Made by a program: the position numbers and the translations under genes | Source: Lysinibacillus sp. JNUCC-52 | Lineage (GTDB): Bacteria; Bacillota; Bacilli; Bacillales_A; Planococcaceae | NCBI RefSeq assembly: GCF_015999545.1 | Contig: NZ_CP065546.1 | Span: forward strand, 4,248,001-4,312,000 | Direction: 5' to 3' | DNA length: 64,000 bases | Shown here: one piece after another, positions 26,902-35,399 of the stretch | How positions within the stretch are numbered: the first letter of the stretch is position 1 | How the letters are laid out: each line of letters begins with the position of its first letter | Notes under the pieces: generated by a model | The model's database searches: none | Told to the model about the DNA's origin: nothing | What the model saw: the letters and a program-made list of their open reading frames with translations, nothing else

Positions 26902-26930
26902 TCATTATAGTTTAATTAGGAGTGGAAGAG

Positions 26931-28757
26931 ATGAACCGAGAAGCACGATTAAAAAGACAAGAGAATATTCGAAATTTCTCTATTATTGCACATATTGACC
27001 ACGGGAAATCAACGCTTGCTGACCGTATTTTAGAGCAAACGAAATCACTGACATCCCGTGAAATGAAAGCACAGCTACTCGACTCAATGGATTTAGAGCG
27101 TGAGCGAGGCATAACAATTAAGTTAAATGCAGTCCAATTAAAATATGAAGCTAAAGATGGCGAAGTGTATACATTCCATTTAATCGACACACCTGGACAT
27201 GTCGATTTCACATATGAAGTATCACGTAGTTTAGCTGCTTGTGAGGGCGCTATTTTAGTTGTGGATGCAGCACAAGGCATTGAAGCGCAAACGCTGGCTA
27301 ACGTTTACCTAGCACTTGATAACGACCTTGAAATACTACCAGTTATCAATAAAATTGACTTACCTGCGGCAGATCCAGAGCGTGTTCGTCAAGAAGTTGA
27401 AGATGTCATTGGTTTAGATGCATCTGAAGCGGTATTAGCGTCTGCAAAAGCTGGTATTGGAATTGAAGATATTTTAGAGCAAATTGTTGAAAAGGTTCCT
27501 GCACCAACAGGTGATCCAGAGGCACCGTTACAAGCACTTATTTTTGACTCTGTATACGATGCCTATAAAGGTGTTATTATCTCTATTCGTATTATGAATG
27601 GTACTGTTAAACCAGGTGATAAAATTCGCATGATGGCGACAGGCGCAGAATTTGATGTTATTGAAGTCGGCGTACATACTCCGAAAAGTGTACCGCAAAG
27701 TGAATTAACGGTTGGTGATGTTGGTTACTTAACAGCGTCAATTAAAAATGTAGGTGATACGCGCGTAGGGGATACTGTAACATTTGCGAGTCGCCCAGCA
27801 GCTGAGCCATTAGCGGGTTATCGTCGTTTAAATCCAATGGTGTACTGTGGATTATATCCAATCGATACAGCTAAGTATAATGACTTACGTGATGCCTTAG
27901 AAAAATTAGAGTTAAATGACTCAGCATTGCAGTATGAGCCTGAAACGTCACAAGCGTTAGGTTTCGGTTTCCGTTGTGGTTTCTTAGGACTTCTTCATAT
28001 GGAAATCATTCAAGAACGTATTGAACGTGAATTTAACATCGATTTAATTACAACAGCACCATCTGTTATTTACGAAGTGCATATGACAGATGGTACGTCC
28101 ATTAAAGTCGACAACCCATCATTTATGCCTGACCCACAAAAGATCGATCGTGTTGAAGAGCCATATGTGAAAGCAACGATTATGGTACCGAATGATTACG
28201 TTGGGGCGGTTATGGAACTTTGCCAAATGAAACGTGGTAATTTCATGACAATGGACTATATTGATACATCACGTGTCAGCATTATTTATGAAATGCCATT
28301 AGCTGAAATTGTCTATGACTTTTTCGATTATTTAAAATCAAATACAAAAGGCTATGCATCATTTGACTATGAGCTAATCGGTTACCAGCCTTCAAAACTA
28401 GTGAAGATGGATATCCTACTAAATGCTGAGCAAGTCGATGCACTAAGCTTTATCGTTCACCGCGACTTCGCTTATGAACGTGGCAAAATTATCGTAGAAA
28501 AACTAAAAGAATTAATTCCACGTCAACAATTCGAAGTACCGATTCAAGCCGCAGTTGGACAAAAAATTGTCGCGCGTTCAACAATTAAAGCGATGCGTAA
28601 AAACGTATTAGCGAAATGTTACGGCGGAGATATTTCCCGTAAACGTAAACTTCTTGATAAACAAAAAGAAGGTAAAAAACGTATGAAACAAGTCGGCTCC
28701 GTCGAAGTACCACAAGAAGCGTTCATGGCTGTACTGAAGATGGATGATTCGAAGTAA
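26931..28757 (+). CDS. lepA: Elongation factor 4 (LepA)
   Basis: A 608-residue ribosome-binding GTPase that acts in translation initiation or back-translocation. The G domain has AHIDHGKST (G1), RERGITI (G2), DTPGHVDF (G3), NKIDLP (G4) and SAKAGIG (G5); domains II, III, V and the LepA C-terminal domain follow and end AVLKMDDSK. The ATG at 26931 is preferred to the GTG at 26922 because AGGAG lies eight bases upstream. In B. subtilis the next gene is hemW; here hemW is 35 kb away. The 3' end is the site of repeated DNA insertion (see repeats). Confidence 0.97.
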
Positions 28758-28816
28758 TTCAGTAGTAGTAAGAGTTTGTAACGTATTTTGATAAATTATT
28801 ATAGGGTTAAATGGTG
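28711..28816 (+). repeat. lepA 3' end, copy 1 of a threefold direct repeat (probable attachment site)
   Basis: The last codons of lepA and about 60 bases beyond it. About 95 bases recur at 30975-31068 and a shorter, more diverged version at 32899-32943. The best conserved core in copies 1 and 2 is GATGATTCGAAGTAATTCAG followed by GTAAGAGTTTGTAACGTATT after a few mismatches. The arrangement (intact gene at left, gene-end fragments at right, recombinase gene between) is that of elements integrated at the 3' end of a gene. Confidence 0.8.
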
Positions 28817-28841
28817 GGGCTCCCCACCAATTCCCCACCAT
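28811..28841 (+). repeat. Paired CCCCACCA repeats, candidate recombinase arm sites (left end)
   Basis: CCCCACCA occurs at 28822 and 28833, in direct repeat at 11-base spacing, and an inverted copy (TGGTGGGG) lies at 28812. A degenerate pair with the same 11-base spacing lies at 30844-30863 near the other end of the element. Direct repeats just inside the ends of integrative elements are often arm-binding sites for the recombinase; that role here is inferred. Confidence 0.45.
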
Positions 28842-28861
28842 AAAAAAATATGTTAGTAATT

Positions 28862-29706
28862 TTATATATCTTGAGCAAATGAATCAAAGATGTTCGTGGC
28901 ATCTCTGGCCATTTTCTCAGTGAGGTGGACATAGCGATCTTCTGTTACGGCAGCTCGACTATGTCCTAATCTTTTTTGTACAGTTTTAACAGGAGTACCA
29001 TTCTCGATTAAAGTCGTAGCATGTGTAGGGCGTAGAGAATGATAATTAAAAGTAATATTTAATTTTTCTAGTGTTATATTTGATTACACTTGGTGTACAA
29101 TGTTCACCACTTTCTTTTTGCACTTCTGCATTACCAAAAGGAATCGTACGATAACCAGCCTTTGATTTAGGAGGTCTAGGTTGCCATTGAATTTTTCCGT
29201 TTTCATCTTTAATACCAACCAGTTGTTGCTCAACTTCCAGTGTCATTTCTTCGAAATTTATATGTTTCCATTCAAGACCACAAACTTCTCCAACACGTAA
29301 TCCACAATGCAAGCCAATATGAAATGGTAGATAAAAAGGATGATCTTCATTTATTGTGCTATTAATGCCTCTTAAGTTTTCTTTCGATTGGATTTTTAAC
29401 TCTTCACGAGTAGGTTTTCTATTTTTGTCTCTCATTAATTCCACATAATGCATTTGGTTTTTATTTGATGTATTTATACGGATATACAGCATGATTTAAG
29501 GACTTACTAAGGATACCCACGATAATGCTCAAAGTTTGACGAGCGTAACCCTCACGCGATTTTAGATTAATAAACTGTTGCAATACATGGGGAGTCAATG
29601 ATTTCACTTTATACTTACCCAAATGAGGTATTATGTGAATTCTAATCGTCGACTCGTAATTATAATACGTATTGGGCTCTAATTTGAGCTCAACATATTC
29701 ATGCAT
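28862..29706 (-). pseudogene. Tyrosine recombinase/phage-type integrase, broken by at least two frame disruptions
   Basis: Three minus-strand pieces in the right order make up a phage-type integrase. The N-terminal core-binding part (29706-29461) has ESTIRIHIIPHLGKYKVKSLTP. The middle (29492-29046) has the catalytic-Arg motif GLHCGLRVGEVCGLEW. The C-terminal piece (about 29075-28862) has HSLRPTHATTLIENG, RLGHSRA and VTEDRYVHL. The frame shifts near 29470 and again near 29080, where 30 or more residues also seem to be missing; a TAG just upstream of 29706 cuts off the N-terminal arm domain. The enzyme cannot be active as it stands. It lies directly beside the lepA end, where the integrase of an element at this site would be. 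Confidence 0.88.
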
Positions 29707-29926
29707 CCTTTCTATAACTGGCTAAAGGAAAGAGATAGCCTTTCACAATCAAATTAGTAATAAACCATTTATTTTAGAGAATTGGGTAGAATGGTAGATG
29801 GATGAAATAATGTAATGGAAAAACACTCTACTTTTGTTGGATTTTTAACATTCGTTGCTAGAATATTAGATTACTAGTATATAATACTGAGAGATTATTT
29901 TTTTAAAACTGAGTAGGAGGAGAATA

Positions 29927-30694
29927 ATGAAAAAAATACTTATTGTGTTACTAACAGCATTTGTAATCGCAGTAGTAAATCCAACAAAATCAGAAGCAAA
30001 AGTAATGTATGATGGAGCAGAGGTTGTAAAAGAGCAAACAGGAAAAATGACCTTTAAAAAAGACATCAAGGTATACAAGAAAAATTCAGATGGTACGTTT
30101 GATTCGTTAGTGGTTAAGTCAAATAACTTCTTTAGAACGTATGATATTGAAAAATATGATGGCAAAATATTTTACCAGATGGGGCAATATCGCGTACAAG
30201 CAACGGATTTGGTAATTTTCAAAGAAGTACCAATAAAAATTCGTTCATCTTTCTATAACAATCCAACTTATATTTATATTAATCGTGACCAAATTGGATA
30301 CTTTAAGAGTTACGGAAAATATTTTAATAAAGATGAAAAGCTCAATGGACAAGCGGCCAAGATTTCTTTCTCAAATGACGAACAATTCCTTTCTTATTGT
30401 TTCATGGATGCAGATGGAGAAATATGTATGGGATATCAAGGGACAGATATTAAAATAGCAGAAACGATAAAAAGAAAAGAAGGCGTGCATTATGAGTTAA
30501 CAGCGGATACGCGAGCGCAACTTAGTCCAATAGAGGGATACGTTCGAGCTGATGATAACAGAATGTATTTAAAGGGAAGCGTTTTTTCATCGCTAGGTAT
30601 AGAAATTAATGGTTATCTATATGTAAGGAATGAATCGGATTCGTTAGTTAGCTATTTTCCAATAAAATTATTAAAGTCAGTTGGAGATAAGTGA
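29927..30694 (+). CDS. Secreted protein of unknown function
   Basis: A 255-residue protein with a signal peptide: Lys-rich start, hydrophobic core ILIVLLTAFVIAVV, and probable cleavage after SEA near residue 24. The mature part is mostly beta by composition, with DIKVYKKNSDGTFDSLVVKS and a tyrosine-rich middle; I recognise no family. A strong GTAGGAGGAGAA ribosome-binding site and a following terminator show an intact unit. It is the only intact gene between the first two lepA-end copies, so it is probably cargo of the integrated element. Confidence 0.75.
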   Translation: MKKILIVLLTAFVIAVVNPTKSEAKVMYDGAEVVKEQTGKMTFKKDIKVYKKNSDGTFDSLVVKSNNFFRTYDIEKYDGKIFYQMGQYRVQATDLVIFKEVPIKIRSSFYNNPTYIYINRDQIGYFKSYGKYFNKDEKLNGQAAKISFSNDEQFLSYCFMDADGEICMGYQGTDIKIAETIKRKEGVHYELTADTRAQLSPIEGYVRADDNRMYLKGSVFSSLGIEINGYLYVRNESDSLVSYFPIKLLKSVGDK

Positions 30695-30710
30695 TATATT
30701 ATGAATTATA

Positions 30711-30750
30711 TATAGCTCTCTTATTTAATTGATAAGGGGGCTATTTATAT
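30711..30750 (+). terminator. Terminator of the secreted-protein gene
   Basis: ATAGCTCTCTTATT pairs imperfectly with GATAAGGGGGCTAT and is followed by TTATAT. It begins 17 bases after the stop. Confidence 0.65.
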
Positions 30751-30843
30751 GGTTGTTGATATACAATGTTTGTCAATGTCTTGGTCTTAGCTGAATAAAC
30801 AATAATAAGACCACTCTGTGATGGGTGGCAATTTTGTTATTTT

Positions 30844-30863
30844 TCCCATCATATCCCCACTAA
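30844..30863 (+). repeat. Degenerate CCCCACCA-like pair near the right end of the element
   Basis: TCCCATCATA and TCCCCACTAA are spaced 11 bases apart and match the left-end pair at 28822-28841 at 14 of 20 positions by eye. Proposed second recombinase arm site; low certainty. Confidence 0.3.
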
Positions 30864-30921
30864 TGATAGTAAATAAGCGAAGATAAAACCTATATACAAC
30901 TAGATAAAATTAAATAAAAAA

Positions 30922-30960
30922 CAACCGACAAACCGTTATATATCATAGGATTGTCGGTTG
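30922..30960. terminator. Perfect 10-bp hairpin near the right end of the element
   Basis: CAACCGACAA (30922-30931) pairs exactly with TTGTCGGTTG (30951-30960). An A-rich run precedes it, so on the minus strand it would act as a terminator; on the plus strand it lacks a T run. Confidence 0.5.
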
Positions 30961-30974
30961 AATACAATGTTTCT

Positions 30975-31068
30975 ACAGGAAGGGTTCATGGCTGTACAGA
31001 AGATAGATGATTCGAAGTAATTCAGTAATGGTAAGAGTTTGTAACGTATTTTTTTAGGGTTCAATGGT
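30975..31068 (+). repeat. lepA 3' end, copy 2 (probable att site remnant)
   Basis: About 94 bases matching 28711-28816 at roughly 85%. It would encode QEGFMAVQKIDDSK and a stop in the lepA frame, then the same 3' flank (GTAAGAGTTTGTAACGTATT). It has no start or upstream lepA sequence, so it is a gene-end fragment left by integration rather than a gene. The match ends close to AATGGT, near 28816 and 31067. Confidence 0.8.
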
Positions 31069-31094
31069 AACTAACGAATAAATATATCTGAGTT

Positions 31095-31127
31095 AAGCCT
31101 TTCACATTTCTGTGGAGGGCTTTTCTT
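31095..31127 (+). terminator. Hairpin after lepA-end copy 2
   Basis: AAGCC...CACA pairs with TGTG...GGCTT, followed by TTCTTATT. It may be the old terminator that followed the earlier lepA junction. Confidence 0.5.
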
Positions 31128-31375
31128 ATTCAAAAATAGGAGATGAGCCTTATGAGAGGTATTGATTTGAACCAGTTATGAGAACTGAAACAAAAGCTTT
31201 ATTGCGCACGCTGTTAAGGACGGTATTATTTCAGGATTTATAAAATGGTATAACTGACCATTTATCGGTTTATATGTCACCAATTCAGCAGAGAGGTAGT
31301 AAATGATAAGTGATAACAGTTTTCCTTGCTTTTGCATACTATAGGAGCATGTATGCAAAAAGAGGAGGATAAAAT

Positions 31376-31600
31376 ATGGTAATGCCTTCATATAATCAGA
31401 GAATTACTCCCCAACAGGCAATGCAGATTGCTGTGCAAAGAGTACCTGGCCAGATCATTCATTATGGTATGGATATGGAAAACGGCACTTTAGTGTATGA
31501 AATATTCATTTTAACTGCTCAAAATAAGATTTATGAAGTAGAAGTAAATGCAAAGACAGGTGTAGTTCGAAAAATTGAAGAAGAGAATGATTATGATTAA
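31376..31600 (+). CDS. Small PepSY-domain protein
   Basis: A 74-residue protein made almost wholly of one PepSY domain: ITPQQAMQIAVQRVPG, then LVYEIFILTAQNKIYEVEV and DAKTG-like NAKTGVV. PepSY domains often inhibit or chaperone peptidases or sense cations. There is no signal peptide, so it should be cytoplasmic, which is unusual for the domain. AGAGGAGGATAAAAT precedes the ATG. It lies between lepA-end copies 2 and 3. Confidence 0.8.
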   Translation: MVMPSYNQRITPQQAMQIAVQRVPGQIIHYGMDMENGTLVYEIFILTAQNKIYEVEVNAKTGVVRKIEEENDYD

Positions 31601-31659
31601 TTAAAAATAAAAGGACAGGACTTACTTAGTTGAATAAACAATAAAAAATGACTCCGAAA

Positions 31660-31784
31660 TGAACTGCACCTCAATTGTTAGACACAATCTAACAATTGAG
31701 GTGCGTTTAATATGGTTAAGATTACACTAGACAATTACTTTACTTACAAAAGTATAAAATGTCTAACTTTTTGGGTTCACTTCA
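31660..31784 (+). mobile_element. 125-bp remnant of an IS3-family (IS150-like) element
   Basis: The left end TGAACTGCACCTCAATTGTT (31660 on) and the right end (31761-31784, reading GTCTAACTTTTTGGGTTCAC then TTCA) form imperfect 24-bp terminal inverted repeats, similar to those of IS150-group elements. Next to the left end is the hairpin CAATTGTTAGA/TCTAACAATTG. A start of a short frame follows (ATGGTTAAGATTAC), which would be orfA, but almost all of the transposase is missing, so the element is internally deleted. No clear target duplication is visible. Confidence 0.65.
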
Positions 31785-31826
31785 AATATGGGTGGTCAAA
31801 ATAAATAAAACCTAATTAATCTTATA

Positions 31827-31991
31827 TTATAATGAGGTTGATTTACTTTTCTTCTCATTAATTATAAGGTCTTCTTGATTTTGTGGGCGAGCAGTTTCAG
31901 TATGTCCGACACGCTCATTAGGTTTTTTAATATTTGATTGTTTTGTTGGCTCGTCTGTTGCAAATTCTGTATCTTTCTTATCCCTTTTCAT
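31827..31991 (-). CDS. Small hydrophilic protein, 54 residues
   Basis: A 54-residue charged, probably unfolded protein (MKRDKKDTEFATDEPTKQSN at its start), rich in Lys, Glu, Thr and Gln and without a hydrophobic stretch. AGGAGGTGTTGAA lies before the ATG, which makes it a likely real gene. It resembles small spore-associated proteins in composition only. It is antisense to its neighbours, within the second lepA-end interval. Confidence 0.55.
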   Translation of the reverse strand: MKRDKKDTEFATDEPTKQSNIKKPNERVGHTETARPQNQEDLIINEKKSKSTSL

Positions 31992-32180
31992 TTCAACACC
32001 TCCTAAAGATATTATTTAACTTATCTCAATAAAATATCCTTGTTTATTTCGACTTCATACTTACAACTATAGCGGAGCTGGTTTTTTAATTTGCAATGAA
32101 AGAGCCATAGCGAAGAGTTAACGATTCTTCACTTTAAAATGCCAATAAATGGTCGATATATAAACAAGAGGTGATGTAAT

Positions 32181-32888
32181 ATGAAACTTACGAATGAAGT
32201 AAATTCTTCTAATTTCATGAAGTTGTCAAATGGATCAGCAATTAAGCCTAAATTGGTTCAGCAAAATCTTATAGTACATAAAGATACATTAACAATTGGA
32301 CAACAAGCTCGTAATTTGTTTAAAGGGCAGCAAGCTAAAACGAGTCTTATCGAAAGTTTAATGAAACAACGTGAGAATATTCAAAAGATGAAAAGTGATC
32401 TGAGTGAACGTACGTTGGAAAGCGGAGGCGACTTATCATCTATTAAGGAACAACTAAAAGATTTTGAAAAGCAAATAGCTGATATAGATGCGCAAATAGC
32501 TGAACAGCAAACGGATGAGCAAAAGAAAACGACAAACCAAAATGAACAGGATTTGAAAAGCGAAAAGCCATCCAACTCAATGGAAAATCTTTTAGAAAAA
32601 TCTGTTTCACTAGAACAAATGAAAACACTTGAGTTGACAAAGAATTCATTAGGACGTGAGCAAAATCGCCTTTCCAGTGAATTAGAGATGGATGCCGACC
32701 GAGGTATTTTTATTGATAGTAAATATGAAAAACTTTCGGATGTAGAGAATCGAATACAAACGGTTCAAGAACAAGTTGCTGAAGAAATCCAGAATAATGA
32801 TGATAAAGAACTAAATAAAGATGTTTCCCTAGCGCCTATAAGTGAAAAAGAAGTGCTTAATGAATCAAAAATGGACAATCAATGGTAA
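32181..32888 (+). CDS. Coiled-coil protein of unknown function
   Basis: A 235-residue, highly charged and mostly helical protein with no signal peptide or membrane segment. Coiled-coil stretches are likely near residues 55-110 (SLMKQRENIQKMKSDLSE, LKDFEKQIADIDAQIAEQ) and 140-205. AAGAGGTGATGTAAT is its ribosome-binding site. I do not recognise the family. It ends 11 bases before lepA-end copy 3 and is the last gene of the second interval. Confidence 0.7.
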   Translation: MKLTNEVNSSNFMKLSNGSAIKPKLVQQNLIVHKDTLTIGQQARNLFKGQQAKTSLIESLMKQRENIQKMKSDLSERTLESGGDLSSIKEQLKDFEKQIADIDAQIAEQQTDEQKKTTNQNEQDLKSEKPSNSMENLLEKSVSLEQMKTLELTKNSLGREQNRLSSELEMDADRGIFIDSKYEKLSDVENRIQTVQEQVAEEIQNNDDKELNKDVSLAPISEKEVLNESKMDNQW

Positions 32889-32898
32889 GCGAGAAAAA

Positions 32899-32943
32899 GC
32901 GTTATAAGCGGTGCTGAAGATGGACGAAGAAGTAATTCAGTAA
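32899..32943 (+). repeat. lepA 3' end, copy 3 (diverged att-like remnant)
   Basis: About 45 bases with GTGCTGAAGATGGACGAAG then AAGTAATTCAGTAA, matching 28721-28772 apart from a three-base gap and several changes. In the lepA frame it reads AVLKMDEE, like the LepA C-terminus (AVLKMDDSK). A good terminator follows at once (32980), which may be the original lepA terminator pushed away by insertions. Confidence 0.65.
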
Positions 32944-32977
32944 CCTCTATAATTTTAGCGCCAATAAAAAAAGTTAA

Positions 32978-33018
32978 ATAGCCCAGGCTCCCGAGTAATT
33001 GCGAGTCTGGGCTTTTGT
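32978..33018 (+). terminator. Terminator after lepA-end copy 3
   Basis: AGCCCAGGCTC (32980-32990) pairs with GAGTCTGGGCT (33003-33013) and a TTTTGTTA tail follows. Confidence 0.88.
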
Positions 33019-33171
33019 TATTCAGTTTATATAAGTAAAAAAATTTTTTAATAGTTATTTGAAAGCTCGCAGCAATTTTATCTAATTTAATTTTTTGAAC
33101 AAAAAAGGATAATATAAGTAAATATAGAAATGGTTATCTTATAGTAAAAAAATGACGGGAGGCAAGTTATT

Positions 33172-33561
33172 GTGACCATACCAATAAATAAAACACCGAT
33201 TAAAAACCAAATAGGCGGTGTATTTGTTCCAGTACGTGATCTAGAAAAAGCAAGAGAATGGTACAGTAAAATACTCGGATTAGAAGGGGGAGAAATATGT
33301 TTCGGGCATTTATACACAGCACCAATGATGGGAACGGCAGGTTTGATGTTAGATACAATGCCTAAGTGGAGAAAGGAAGATGGGGATATTTCAACCTATC
33401 AAGCTCCCTTTATTCAGTTACTAACAAATGATATCCAAGCTTCTTATCAATTTATGAAAGAAAATGATGTTGAACTTGTGACGGAGATTGAGGACAATTT
33501 TTATTTTGTAATTAAAGATCCAGATGGAAATTTATTGATGATTTGTAGGGGAATATCTTAA
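33172..33561 (+). CDS. VOC (glyoxalase/bleomycin resistance) superfamily protein
   Basis: A 129-residue single vicinal-oxygen-chelate domain: GGVFVPVRDLEKAREWYSK at the start and FYFVIKDPDGNLLMICRG at the end, the usual first and last metal-side motifs. Members include lyases, dioxygenases and drug-binding proteins; the role here is unknown. It starts with GTG at 33172 behind GGGAGGC. Confidence 0.85.
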   Translation: MTIPINKTPIKNQIGGVFVPVRDLEKAREWYSKILGLEGGEICFGHLYTAPMMGTAGLMLDTMPKWRKEDGDISTYQAPFIQLLTNDIQASYQFMKENDVELVTEIEDNFYFVIKDPDGNLLMICRGIS

Positions 33562-33727
33562 ACAAGATTTAGTCAACTACAAGCTTCACTGGCTGATATT
33601 CATAATTAAGTACCTCTTATGCCAATTTTTTTACCACTTATCATGAGAAAAACAAATCCTCTAAAATTTAATGCTACATTAAGGACTGAGGAACGTATTT
33701 CTAAAATAAATTTTAGGGGACCGCACA

Positions 33728-34686: not shown

Positions 34687-35030
34687 ATAAAAATTGAAAA
34701 AGGTGAATTAAAAGTTTTAGACAACGGTGCCATGATTGATTCGACCGATAAAAACTTTTATATTCAGGGCGGATCTACTTACGATGAAACTTTTTGGTGG
34801 GGCAAACGACGTTATATGAGTACTTCAGCTGCTAGGCAATGGGTTTATGATTTAAGAGATGCAGCAGGCTGTATCAACTGGTCTCGCACTTGCTAGTGTC
34901 GTTTTTGGCAAACTTGGTATAATTCCTGGAACTATTAATGGTATTACTGCTTTATGGACTAACCAATTAGCTAATCGAGTAGAATATCATAATGGAAATA
35001 CAAATAGAGGATTTAGAGCAGATTTATACT
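34687..35030 (+). pseudogene. Remnant of a small Trp/Tyr- and Gly/Ala-rich protein, frameshifted and truncated
   Basis: Two frames join to one protein: the first (34687-34894) reads DETFWWGKRRYMSTSAAR and QWVYDLRDA, then the sense continues one frame over from about 34859 with VSTGLALASVVFGKLG, IPGTINGITALW and RVEYHNGNTNRG. One inserted base near 34860 breaks it, there is no clear start codon, and the end runs into a subtilase fragment. A central hydrophobic Gly/Ala segment flanked by aromatic and basic residues is reminiscent of bacteriocin-like peptides, but I cannot name a family. Confidence 0.55.
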
Positions 35031-35399
35031 GTAGTAGCATCCTCAGGAGATTATGGAAATACTGAATTGATGTATCCTGCAATTTTGGATGAAGTTATTT
35101 CAGTTGGAGCAATTGATGCTTCTGGAAATGTACTTGATTTAACAAGCGGTCCTCAAAGAACGACGATTAACGCTCCTGGTCACGAGATATCAACAATCAA
35201 TACCGATAGAGCAATAATTAAAACAAGTGGTACCTCACAGGCAACAGCCTTAATTTCAGGTTATATCGCACTATTAAAGGATTATGCATTTTCGAAAAAT
35301 AAAGATTTGACCAATGATAGTATTATAGCGCTACTAAAATCTATTAATAGTCGAGAGATAACCTATCTACAAGCATTGAAGAAGATAGATTCTCTCTGA
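35020..35399 (+). pseudogene. C-terminal fragment of an S8 (subtilisin-like) serine protease
   Basis: The fragment begins at TVVASSGDYGNTELMYPA and holds the catalytic-Ser motif GTSQATALISGYIALL. The Asp and His thirds of the catalytic triad are missing, so it cannot be active. The ATG at 34992 that opens the frame lies in sequence belonging to the preceding remnant, and the join falls at GCAGATTTATAC, so a deletion has fused the two genes. Protease plus small secreted protein plus the small membrane protein that follows could be what is left of a processed-peptide locus. Confidence 0.75.

Follow-up and report, generated by a model that had tools for sequence, protein, structure and literature searches.

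Integration of phages at lepA, the gene for elongation factor 4, has been reported for hosts other than the one considered here. For example, phage Fern of Paenibacillus larvae is reported to integrate in lepA with a shared, duplicated stretch of 35 bases (in the accessible part of PMC12453123), and prophages with group VII integrases are reported in lepA of Latilactobacillus curvatus (in the accessible part of PMC10688831). In the PMC literature, nothing was found that links Lysinibacillus with both a prophage and lepA, and nothing on tandem prophages at one site; in the portions available of PMC3675006 and PMC4494060, lepA as an integration site is not the subject. The stretch analysed here is a 64-kilobase (kb) window of Lysinibacillus sp. 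JNUCC-52, to which all coordinates refer and whose genome is designated G000, and the target gene is its lepA (26922..28757, plus strand; 611 codons, frame intact; Pfam LepA_C, E 6e-52). The 3' end of this gene is, with high confidence, an integration site used repeatedly by phages of one integrase group, and the window bears the scars of at least two old, mostly deleted prophages. Two integrations are well supported, and a third, marked by the outermost of the repeats described below, is likely. With its degraded tandem prophages, the locus belongs among the phage integration hotspots at 3' ends of protein-coding genes, a known sort of which it is an unusually well layered case. Given the reports on Fern and the L. 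curvatus prophages, the mechanism is one described by others for relatives, and by analogy it would extend to the window.

Repeats of the gene end and the remnant they enclose

The final 44 nucleotides (nt) of lepA with its stop codon (core copy 1, 28714..28757, plus strand), which in the proposed model would be the left attachment site (attL) of a younger prophage, recur at 30977..31020 (core copy 2, plus strand), the putative right attachment site (attR) of the same prophage. A diverged lepA end followed by TTCAGTA stands at 32894..32943 (core copy 3, plus strand) and is likely the oldest attachment-site remnant. An initial annotation, made from the sequence alone, had noted a recurrence of about 95 bases at 30975-31068; this recurrence is real, with 92% identity between 28712-28789 and 30975-31052, and its ungapped extent is shorter (78 nt). 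The more diverged copy of about 45 bases that the same annotation had placed at 32899-32943 is likewise real, matching the lepA end at 78% over 51 aligned positions with one 2-nt gap. Across the whole genome (4.68 Mb, E ≤ 0.001) the lepA end was found at three places only (E 5e-101, 4.5e-26 and 4.3e-4). Local-alignment scores were 45 for copy 2 and 27 for copy 3, compared with best scores of 17 and 15 among 400 first-order shuffles per region. Random 62-mers drawn from the window (400 of them) scored 20 at most against 31100-33600.

Copies 2 and 3 have no lepA sequence upstream of about 28712, and what lepA and the extra copies share is the final 42–44 nt including the stop. The remaining 32 nt or so of the 78-nt match between copies 1 and 2 lie past the stop and are phage DNA, so the earlier description of fragments that keep the gene end and its 3' flank with nothing upstream stands for the missing upstream part, the flank of copies 1 and 2 being a phage left end. 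The lepA frame stays open through the core, and its C-terminal domain is intact.

The interval between copies 1 and 2 (28758-30976) is a remnant 2.2 kb long and not a prophage: in its list of open reading frames (ORFs) and in Pfam no phage structural gene appeared, and just integrase pieces and one cargo gene were seen. The phage left end (28758..28839) contains the word TCCCCACC twice in direct orientation, at 28821-28828 and again 11 nt further on at 28832-28839; these repeats may be arm-type integrase sites. The same word stands at a similar distance behind lepA in 8 of the 31 other genomes of the genus, with both repeats in G006, G018, G019, G024 and G031 and a single one in G001, G020 and G026, and also in the IMG/VR database. 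Next comes a broken tyrosine integrase (28865..29706, minus strand), as had been annotated, in three pieces (about 28865-29068, 29034-29459 and 29455-29706) in different frames and with internal loss; the pieces are 70%, 89% and 94% identical to the intact 396-residue integrase of an IMG/VR element at lepA, of which residues 1-81 were not found in the window remnant. The N-terminal piece lies above the Pfam cut-off for the integrase SAM-like domain and the catalytic piece slightly under its own (25.1 versus 27.1 bits). An intact gene for a secreted protein of 255 residues (29927..30694, plus strand), also noted earlier, is likely prophage cargo. The remnant closes with a conserved phage right end (30689..30976) that terminates in TGAATACAATGTTTCTACAGG and that, identical or nearly so, also precedes an extra core in seven other genomes of the genus and in IMG/VR: TGAATAnAACnTTTCTATAGG or a near variant precedes copy 2 of the window and extra cores of G001, G003, G006, G022, G024, G027, G029 and the IMG/VR contig (in G003 and G022 this core is on a contig other than that of lepA). 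Right ends of other types occur in G008, G009, G016 and others. Since copy 2 is followed by about 32 nt of a left end of the same type (31021..31052; the exact repeat word is no longer present), it also marks the left edge of a second, older prophage.

Intact elements, occupied sites and an empty site

Intact elements with this recombinase, which the initial annotation had proposed to look for, occur at lepA. An exact-pattern scan of IMG/VR for the core returned one contig of 53.5 kb with two cores about 43.5 kb apart. This contig, IMGVR_UViG_3300011483_000005, is known from its two ends (10.9 and 10.4 of 53.5 kb); it carries lepA and the core at one end, the intact 396-residue integrase, and left and right ends of the window type, and its second core is followed by the left end of a further prophage. 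A related integrase is found in G009, where a 43.5-kb element lies between two cores at lepA. This element is a tailed prophage, with PHROGs matches for a large terminase (226 residues tested), portal, head protease, major capsid, tape measure, tail protein, endolysin and primase, and it is followed by a second, decayed prophage with a left end of the TCCCCACC type.

The genus sample comprised 32 genomes including that of the window, all with a lepA end, and downstream DNA of 7–19 kb was taken where the contig allowed (51 kb for G009; the contigs of G020 and G030 end less than 1 kb past lepA). A second copy of the lepA end was present downstream on the same strand and contig in 9 of 32 genomes at E ≤ 0.01, at distances of 0.7, 2.1, 2.3, 4.9, 5.5, 5.5, 6.9, 14.1 and 43.5 kb, and in 10 of 32 when G029 is added at a looser cut-off; four more (G028, G015, G003 and G030) have a copy on another contig. 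Integrase traces within 2 kb behind lepA, on the opposite strand of the same contig, were detected in 21 of 32 genomes (query, the 399-residue integrase of G009; E ≤ 1e-4). G030, which is split by a contig end, was counted as lacking a trace on the lepA contig, and its next contig opens with a core and a trace. At occupied loci the lepA stop is followed by a phage left end and then by the 3' end of an integrase gene on the opposite strand, and in many loci short direct repeats with a spacing of 11 nt stand about 62 and 73 nt beyond the stop. The repeat word varies with the type of integrase, being TCCCCACC in the window, TTGCCACC in G009, and TTGCCGAC and/or CTTGCGAA in G013, G025 and G028.

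An empty site was found in G007, where a terminator-like hairpin stands directly after lepA. Its counterpart G008 is occupied, with a left-end-like flank and integrase traces after lepA, and the G007 flank resumes past a second core 6.9 kb on; the G007 sequence and the joined G008 flanks are identical at 1972 of 2016 columns, with 32 gap columns. This pair belongs to another species pair of the genus, not to the species of the window. The search for empty sites thus succeeded as the initial annotation had envisaged it, except that the terminator near 32980, which it had expected behind lepA at such sites, is not clearly lepA's own, a similar one also following the coiled-coil gene in G027 and G029. 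Endolysin-type genes homologous to the phage one lie between both cores in G006, G008, G022 and G027.

What follows the second core differs among genomes. An exact left-end repeat word comes directly after it in 3 of 10 genomes (G009, G022 and G024) and in the IMG/VR contig, a left-end-like stretch was recognised by eye in G000, G001, G006 and G016, and a terminator-like hairpin follows in G008, G027 and G029. Given the left ends behind second cores, stacked insertions look common at the lepA site. Cores between phage right and left ends were also seen off the lepA contig, at L045 (G028 contig 14, position 7435, reverse-strand reading) and L047 (G015 contig 78, position 3832), and each may be either a tandem-array junction or a circular phage junction.

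Distribution of the integrase group

Beyond the genus, individual loci (L handles) were collected with the IMG/VR integrase as the family-level query, which matched 14 of 151 genomes at E ≤ 1e-50. Among the 13 loci other than that of the window, scanned with the last 150 LepA residues, ten have a full lepA end beside the integrase gene (int); of the remaining three, L086 has the last 14 lepA codons at the contig end, in L089 about 75 nt of other DNA separate the core from the contig end, and the L084 sequence stops too early to include a core. When 398 genomes drawn from the class were searched, four matched at E ≤ 1e-60 including that of the window, and two of the other three are at lepA. The third, L104 (48% identical by BLAST, 52% in another listing), adjoins a different gene, which we take from its start alone to encode an rlmD-type RNA methyltransferase, and this suggests a target switch inside the clade. 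In the collection of named genomes, a lepA end or core lies beside int in 9 of 16 loci, namely the nine with at least 52% identity (at least seven of these are genomes already counted under G handles), and in none of the seven loci at or below 48%, one of which (L114, 115 nt) is too short to tell. Integrase loci of IMG/VR have a lepA end in 3 of 19 cases (L122, which is the 3300011483 contig, L123 and L125); of the other 16, eleven extend no more than 115 nt past int, which is too short to tell, and five with enough sequence have no lepA end (L132, L135, L136, L137 and L139; 26–42% identity). Judged from these neighbourhoods, the target specificity of the integrase group is not absolute. On the integrase tree, built without L089 (in-frame stop) and without the window pieces, the lepA label requires two changes, not one.

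Among the best 60 of 2123 matched sequences, P. larvae phages, Fern and Tadhana among them, have the closest integrases (51%), followed by Clostridioides phages (43–45%) and L. curvatus phages (about 40%), after which identity drops to about 30%. Fern and Tadhana carry an 11-residue stretch of the lepA end in frame beside int, and the L. curvatus phages TMW 1.1365 P3 and TMW 1.1447 P1 carry the lepA end EAFMSILKMNDED in frame at the same place. Over 36 nt, Tadhana matches the window lepA end at 29, and in our reading of the alignment the seven differences all fall at third codon positions. A lepA end was not found beside the integrase of phiC2, phiCD418 and phiCDKH02 (43–45%), nor, as expected, beside those of phages LincolnB and GBSV1 (29%) or two other integrases of the window's own genome (25–27%). 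The TTGCCACC repeat is present beside the 43%-identical integrases of phiC2 and phiCD418 (L096 and L102), where no lepA end was found.

A wider proposal, for which the chances appear about even, is that one integrase lineage has kept the lepA 3' end as its target across several Bacillota families, and that in most Lysinibacillus species the last 14 or so lepA codons are phage-supplied and rewritten by each prophage, with earlier ones decaying outward in layers.

Proposed mechanism and alternative explanations

In the proposed model, temperate phages with a lepA-specific tyrosine integrase would carry the last 42–44 nt of lepA beside the integrase gene, and the integrase would recombine this phage-borne core with the chromosomal lepA end. 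The prophage would land directly behind lepA and leave a headless second lepA end at its far side, and lepA would keep its frame because the phage supplies the final codons and the stop. As full-length lepA would still be a target, later phages would insert next to it, between lepA and the earlier prophage, pushing the older remains outward. In the window, deletions would have reduced the younger prophage (28758-30976) to both of its ends, the integrase pieces and a single gene for a secreted protein. The older prophage, cut short near an insertion sequence (IS), would be represented behind copy 2 by its left end and possibly some minor cargo, and copy 3 would probably be an even older junction. 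The earlier claim of at least two site-specific integrations at the end of lepA, with the older one further out, is upheld by the elements with intact integrases and the same ends (IMG/VR and G009), by the G007/G008 pair, by the second downstream copies in the genus and by the lepA ends beside int in related phages.

Several observations weigh against this model or limit its reach. Ten of the 32 genomes have no integrase trace near lepA on the same contig (E ≤ 1e-4); at least one exact left-end repeat word is present in five of them (G001, G004, G024, G026 and G027) and none in the other five (G005, G007, G017, G023 and G029), of which G023 and G029 have flanks that appear similar by eye. G026, which has the most similar lepA end, holds one lepA-linked core and a decayed copy 3 and offers no clean 'before' state. 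Integrases about 43–48% identical occur without a lepA end, and six loci of the named collection (L110, L111, L112, L113, L120 and L121; 25–48%) lack one within 2500 nt. The window element is too decayed to prove by itself that a complete phage once stood there. Copy 3, in particular, is preceded by no recognisable phage right end, and the gene and the terminator that flank it each have a counterpart outside the element in G027 and G029. As a candidate for the state before the younger insertion, G026 was not adopted, since a phage left end and integrase DNA persist there downstream of lepA and other parts are gone, which makes its history ambiguous.

Copy 3 is probably a third and oldest junction, a significant but ambiguous relic. 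In the less likely competing explanation, copy 3 is not an attachment-site remnant: either the 3' end of the coiled-coil gene resembles lepA by chance or convergence, or the place is a secondary site of integration. It draws on the missing right end and on G027 and G029, where no recognisable lepA-like stretch separates the coiled-coil gene from a similar terminator, both of them outside the element. Against it, the copy 3 score of 27 was reached by none of the 400 shuffles or 400 random 62-mers, the match runs past the stop into TTCAGTA, which is phage left-end sequence, and a homologous, more decayed stretch is present in G026. Because of this counterpart in G026, copy 3 is older than the split between G000 and G026.

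An origin of the insertions from phage satellites, or from integrative conjugative or mobilizable elements, in place of complete phages is very improbable. In its favour, several of the lepA elements are short (0.7–14 kb) with few genes and the window remnant has no capsid or packaging gene; the complete element at the site in G009 is nevertheless a tailed phage, the endolysin-type genes between the cores of G006, G008, G022 and G027 are expected of deletion remnants, and no relaxase or conjugation gene was noticed, though no search was aimed at them. A plain duplication of the lepA end without any mobile element, whether tandem or segmental and whether through homologous recombination or replication slippage, would fit copies that lie close together in the same orientation. 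It was rejected as scarcely credible, because the repeat stops at the core and phage ends and does not continue into ordinary flanks (the copies share just the last 44 nt of lepA and the phage left end), the DNA before copy 2 is the conserved end found before extra cores in seven other genomes of the genus and IMG/VR, this interval is filled elsewhere by far longer elements with phage genes, and phages that infect other hosts carry the core as well. Neither of the outcomes that the initial annotation had named as fatal to its reading, fragments without any element ever found at lepA or a simple duplication, was thus encountered.

Likely cargo and outer layers

Homologues of the secreted protein of the younger remnant (59–67% amino acid identity) are encoded shortly before the second core in G027 and G029; G023 has one behind a left-end-like flank, and G009 has one within its second prophage. 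Nothing convincing was found for it in Pfam (E ≤ 0.01), PHROGs (E ≤ 1e-5) or PDB sequences (E ≤ 1, best 0.37). The ratio of nonsynonymous to synonymous substitution rates (dN/dS) of the gene is 0.47–0.70 in all six pairs among four genomes, which is weak constraint and no proof of domestication. The ORF is intact in four lepA-linked remnants (G000, G023, G027 and G029), with differing C-termini, in prophages that are otherwise mostly gone.

Outside copy 2, the stretch at 31171..31238 (plus strand) resembles phage lysis-module DNA: it matches the 3' part of the endolysin ORF of G009 at 80% (69 nt) and, at 85% (61 nt), the DNA next to the endolysin match in G015. A gene for a PepSY-domain protein follows (31376..31600, plus strand) and is possibly cargo of the older prophage; G021 has a homologue (92% amino acid identity) beyond integrase traces, about 2.2 kb downstream of lepA, and no second core was found at lepA in that genome. 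At 31659..31820 there is a remnant that we assume to be IS-derived, with a 24-nt inverted repeat (31659-31682/31688-31711) and about 140 nt more in G026. The right end of the older prophage was not found in the window, and the IS-like element may have removed it. A conserved block with a small minus-strand ORF (31799-32129), which may be either chromosomal or cargo, is found again after the left ends of decayed prophages in G006 and IMG/VR and before a phage right end in G019.

The coiled-coil protein gene (32181..32888, plus strand) is probably chromosomal and not cargo, because its counterparts lie outside the second core in G027 and G029. For the same reason the interval from the PepSY gene to the coiled-coil gene was dropped as a single cargo block: of the outer contents annotated at first, the PepSY gene (as possible cargo) and the IS-like remnant hold, and the coiled-coil gene is better assigned to the chromosome. 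The terminator near 32980 was likewise not adopted as lepA's own, since a similar one follows the coiled-coil gene in G027 and G029; terminators of like sequence occur at several places in these loci. Further out, ORFs at 34859-35399 resemble what are presumably pieces of a decayed subtilisin-like protease.

Comparison with described systems

The site offers a readable case of prophage turnover at one housekeeping gene, in which empty, occupied, tandem and decayed states can be aligned across 32 genomes, together with free phages that carry the gene end. It leaves knowledge of how phages integrate unchanged and is useful as a test bed for the rate of prophage decay, the cargo that survives and the way in which phages preserve the end of a coding gene.

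Close to the window remnant stand the elements of G009 and IMG/VR, which share its core; 3300011483 also has the same left end, right end and integrase type, and IMGVR_UViG_3300011698_000010 encodes an integrase 90% identical to that of 3300011483 with lepA alongside. These elements differ from the window in their intact integrases and, for G009 and 3300011483, in a length of about 43.5 kb, compared with a broken integrase and 2.2 kb in the window, and G009 also has another type of left-end repeat. A mobile element from the same genus, IME8 of Lysinibacillus sphaericus, is similar in its site-specific integration, but in the accessible part of its description it is a mobilizable element that targets yolD and is no lepA phage (PMC13239906). 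The L. curvatus phages TMW 1.1365 P3 and TMW 1.1447 P1, which from their integrases would appear to be group VII members in the sense of the accessible part of PMC10688831, resemble the window in having a lepA end beside int and integrases about 40% identical, and the integrase is more distant. Fern and Tadhana (Fernvirus), with other P. larvae phages that have the same integrase match, share with the window an integrase 51% identical over 99% of its length and a lepA end adjoining int; they differ in their host and in being records of free phages, whereas the window holds a deletion remnant within a layered array.

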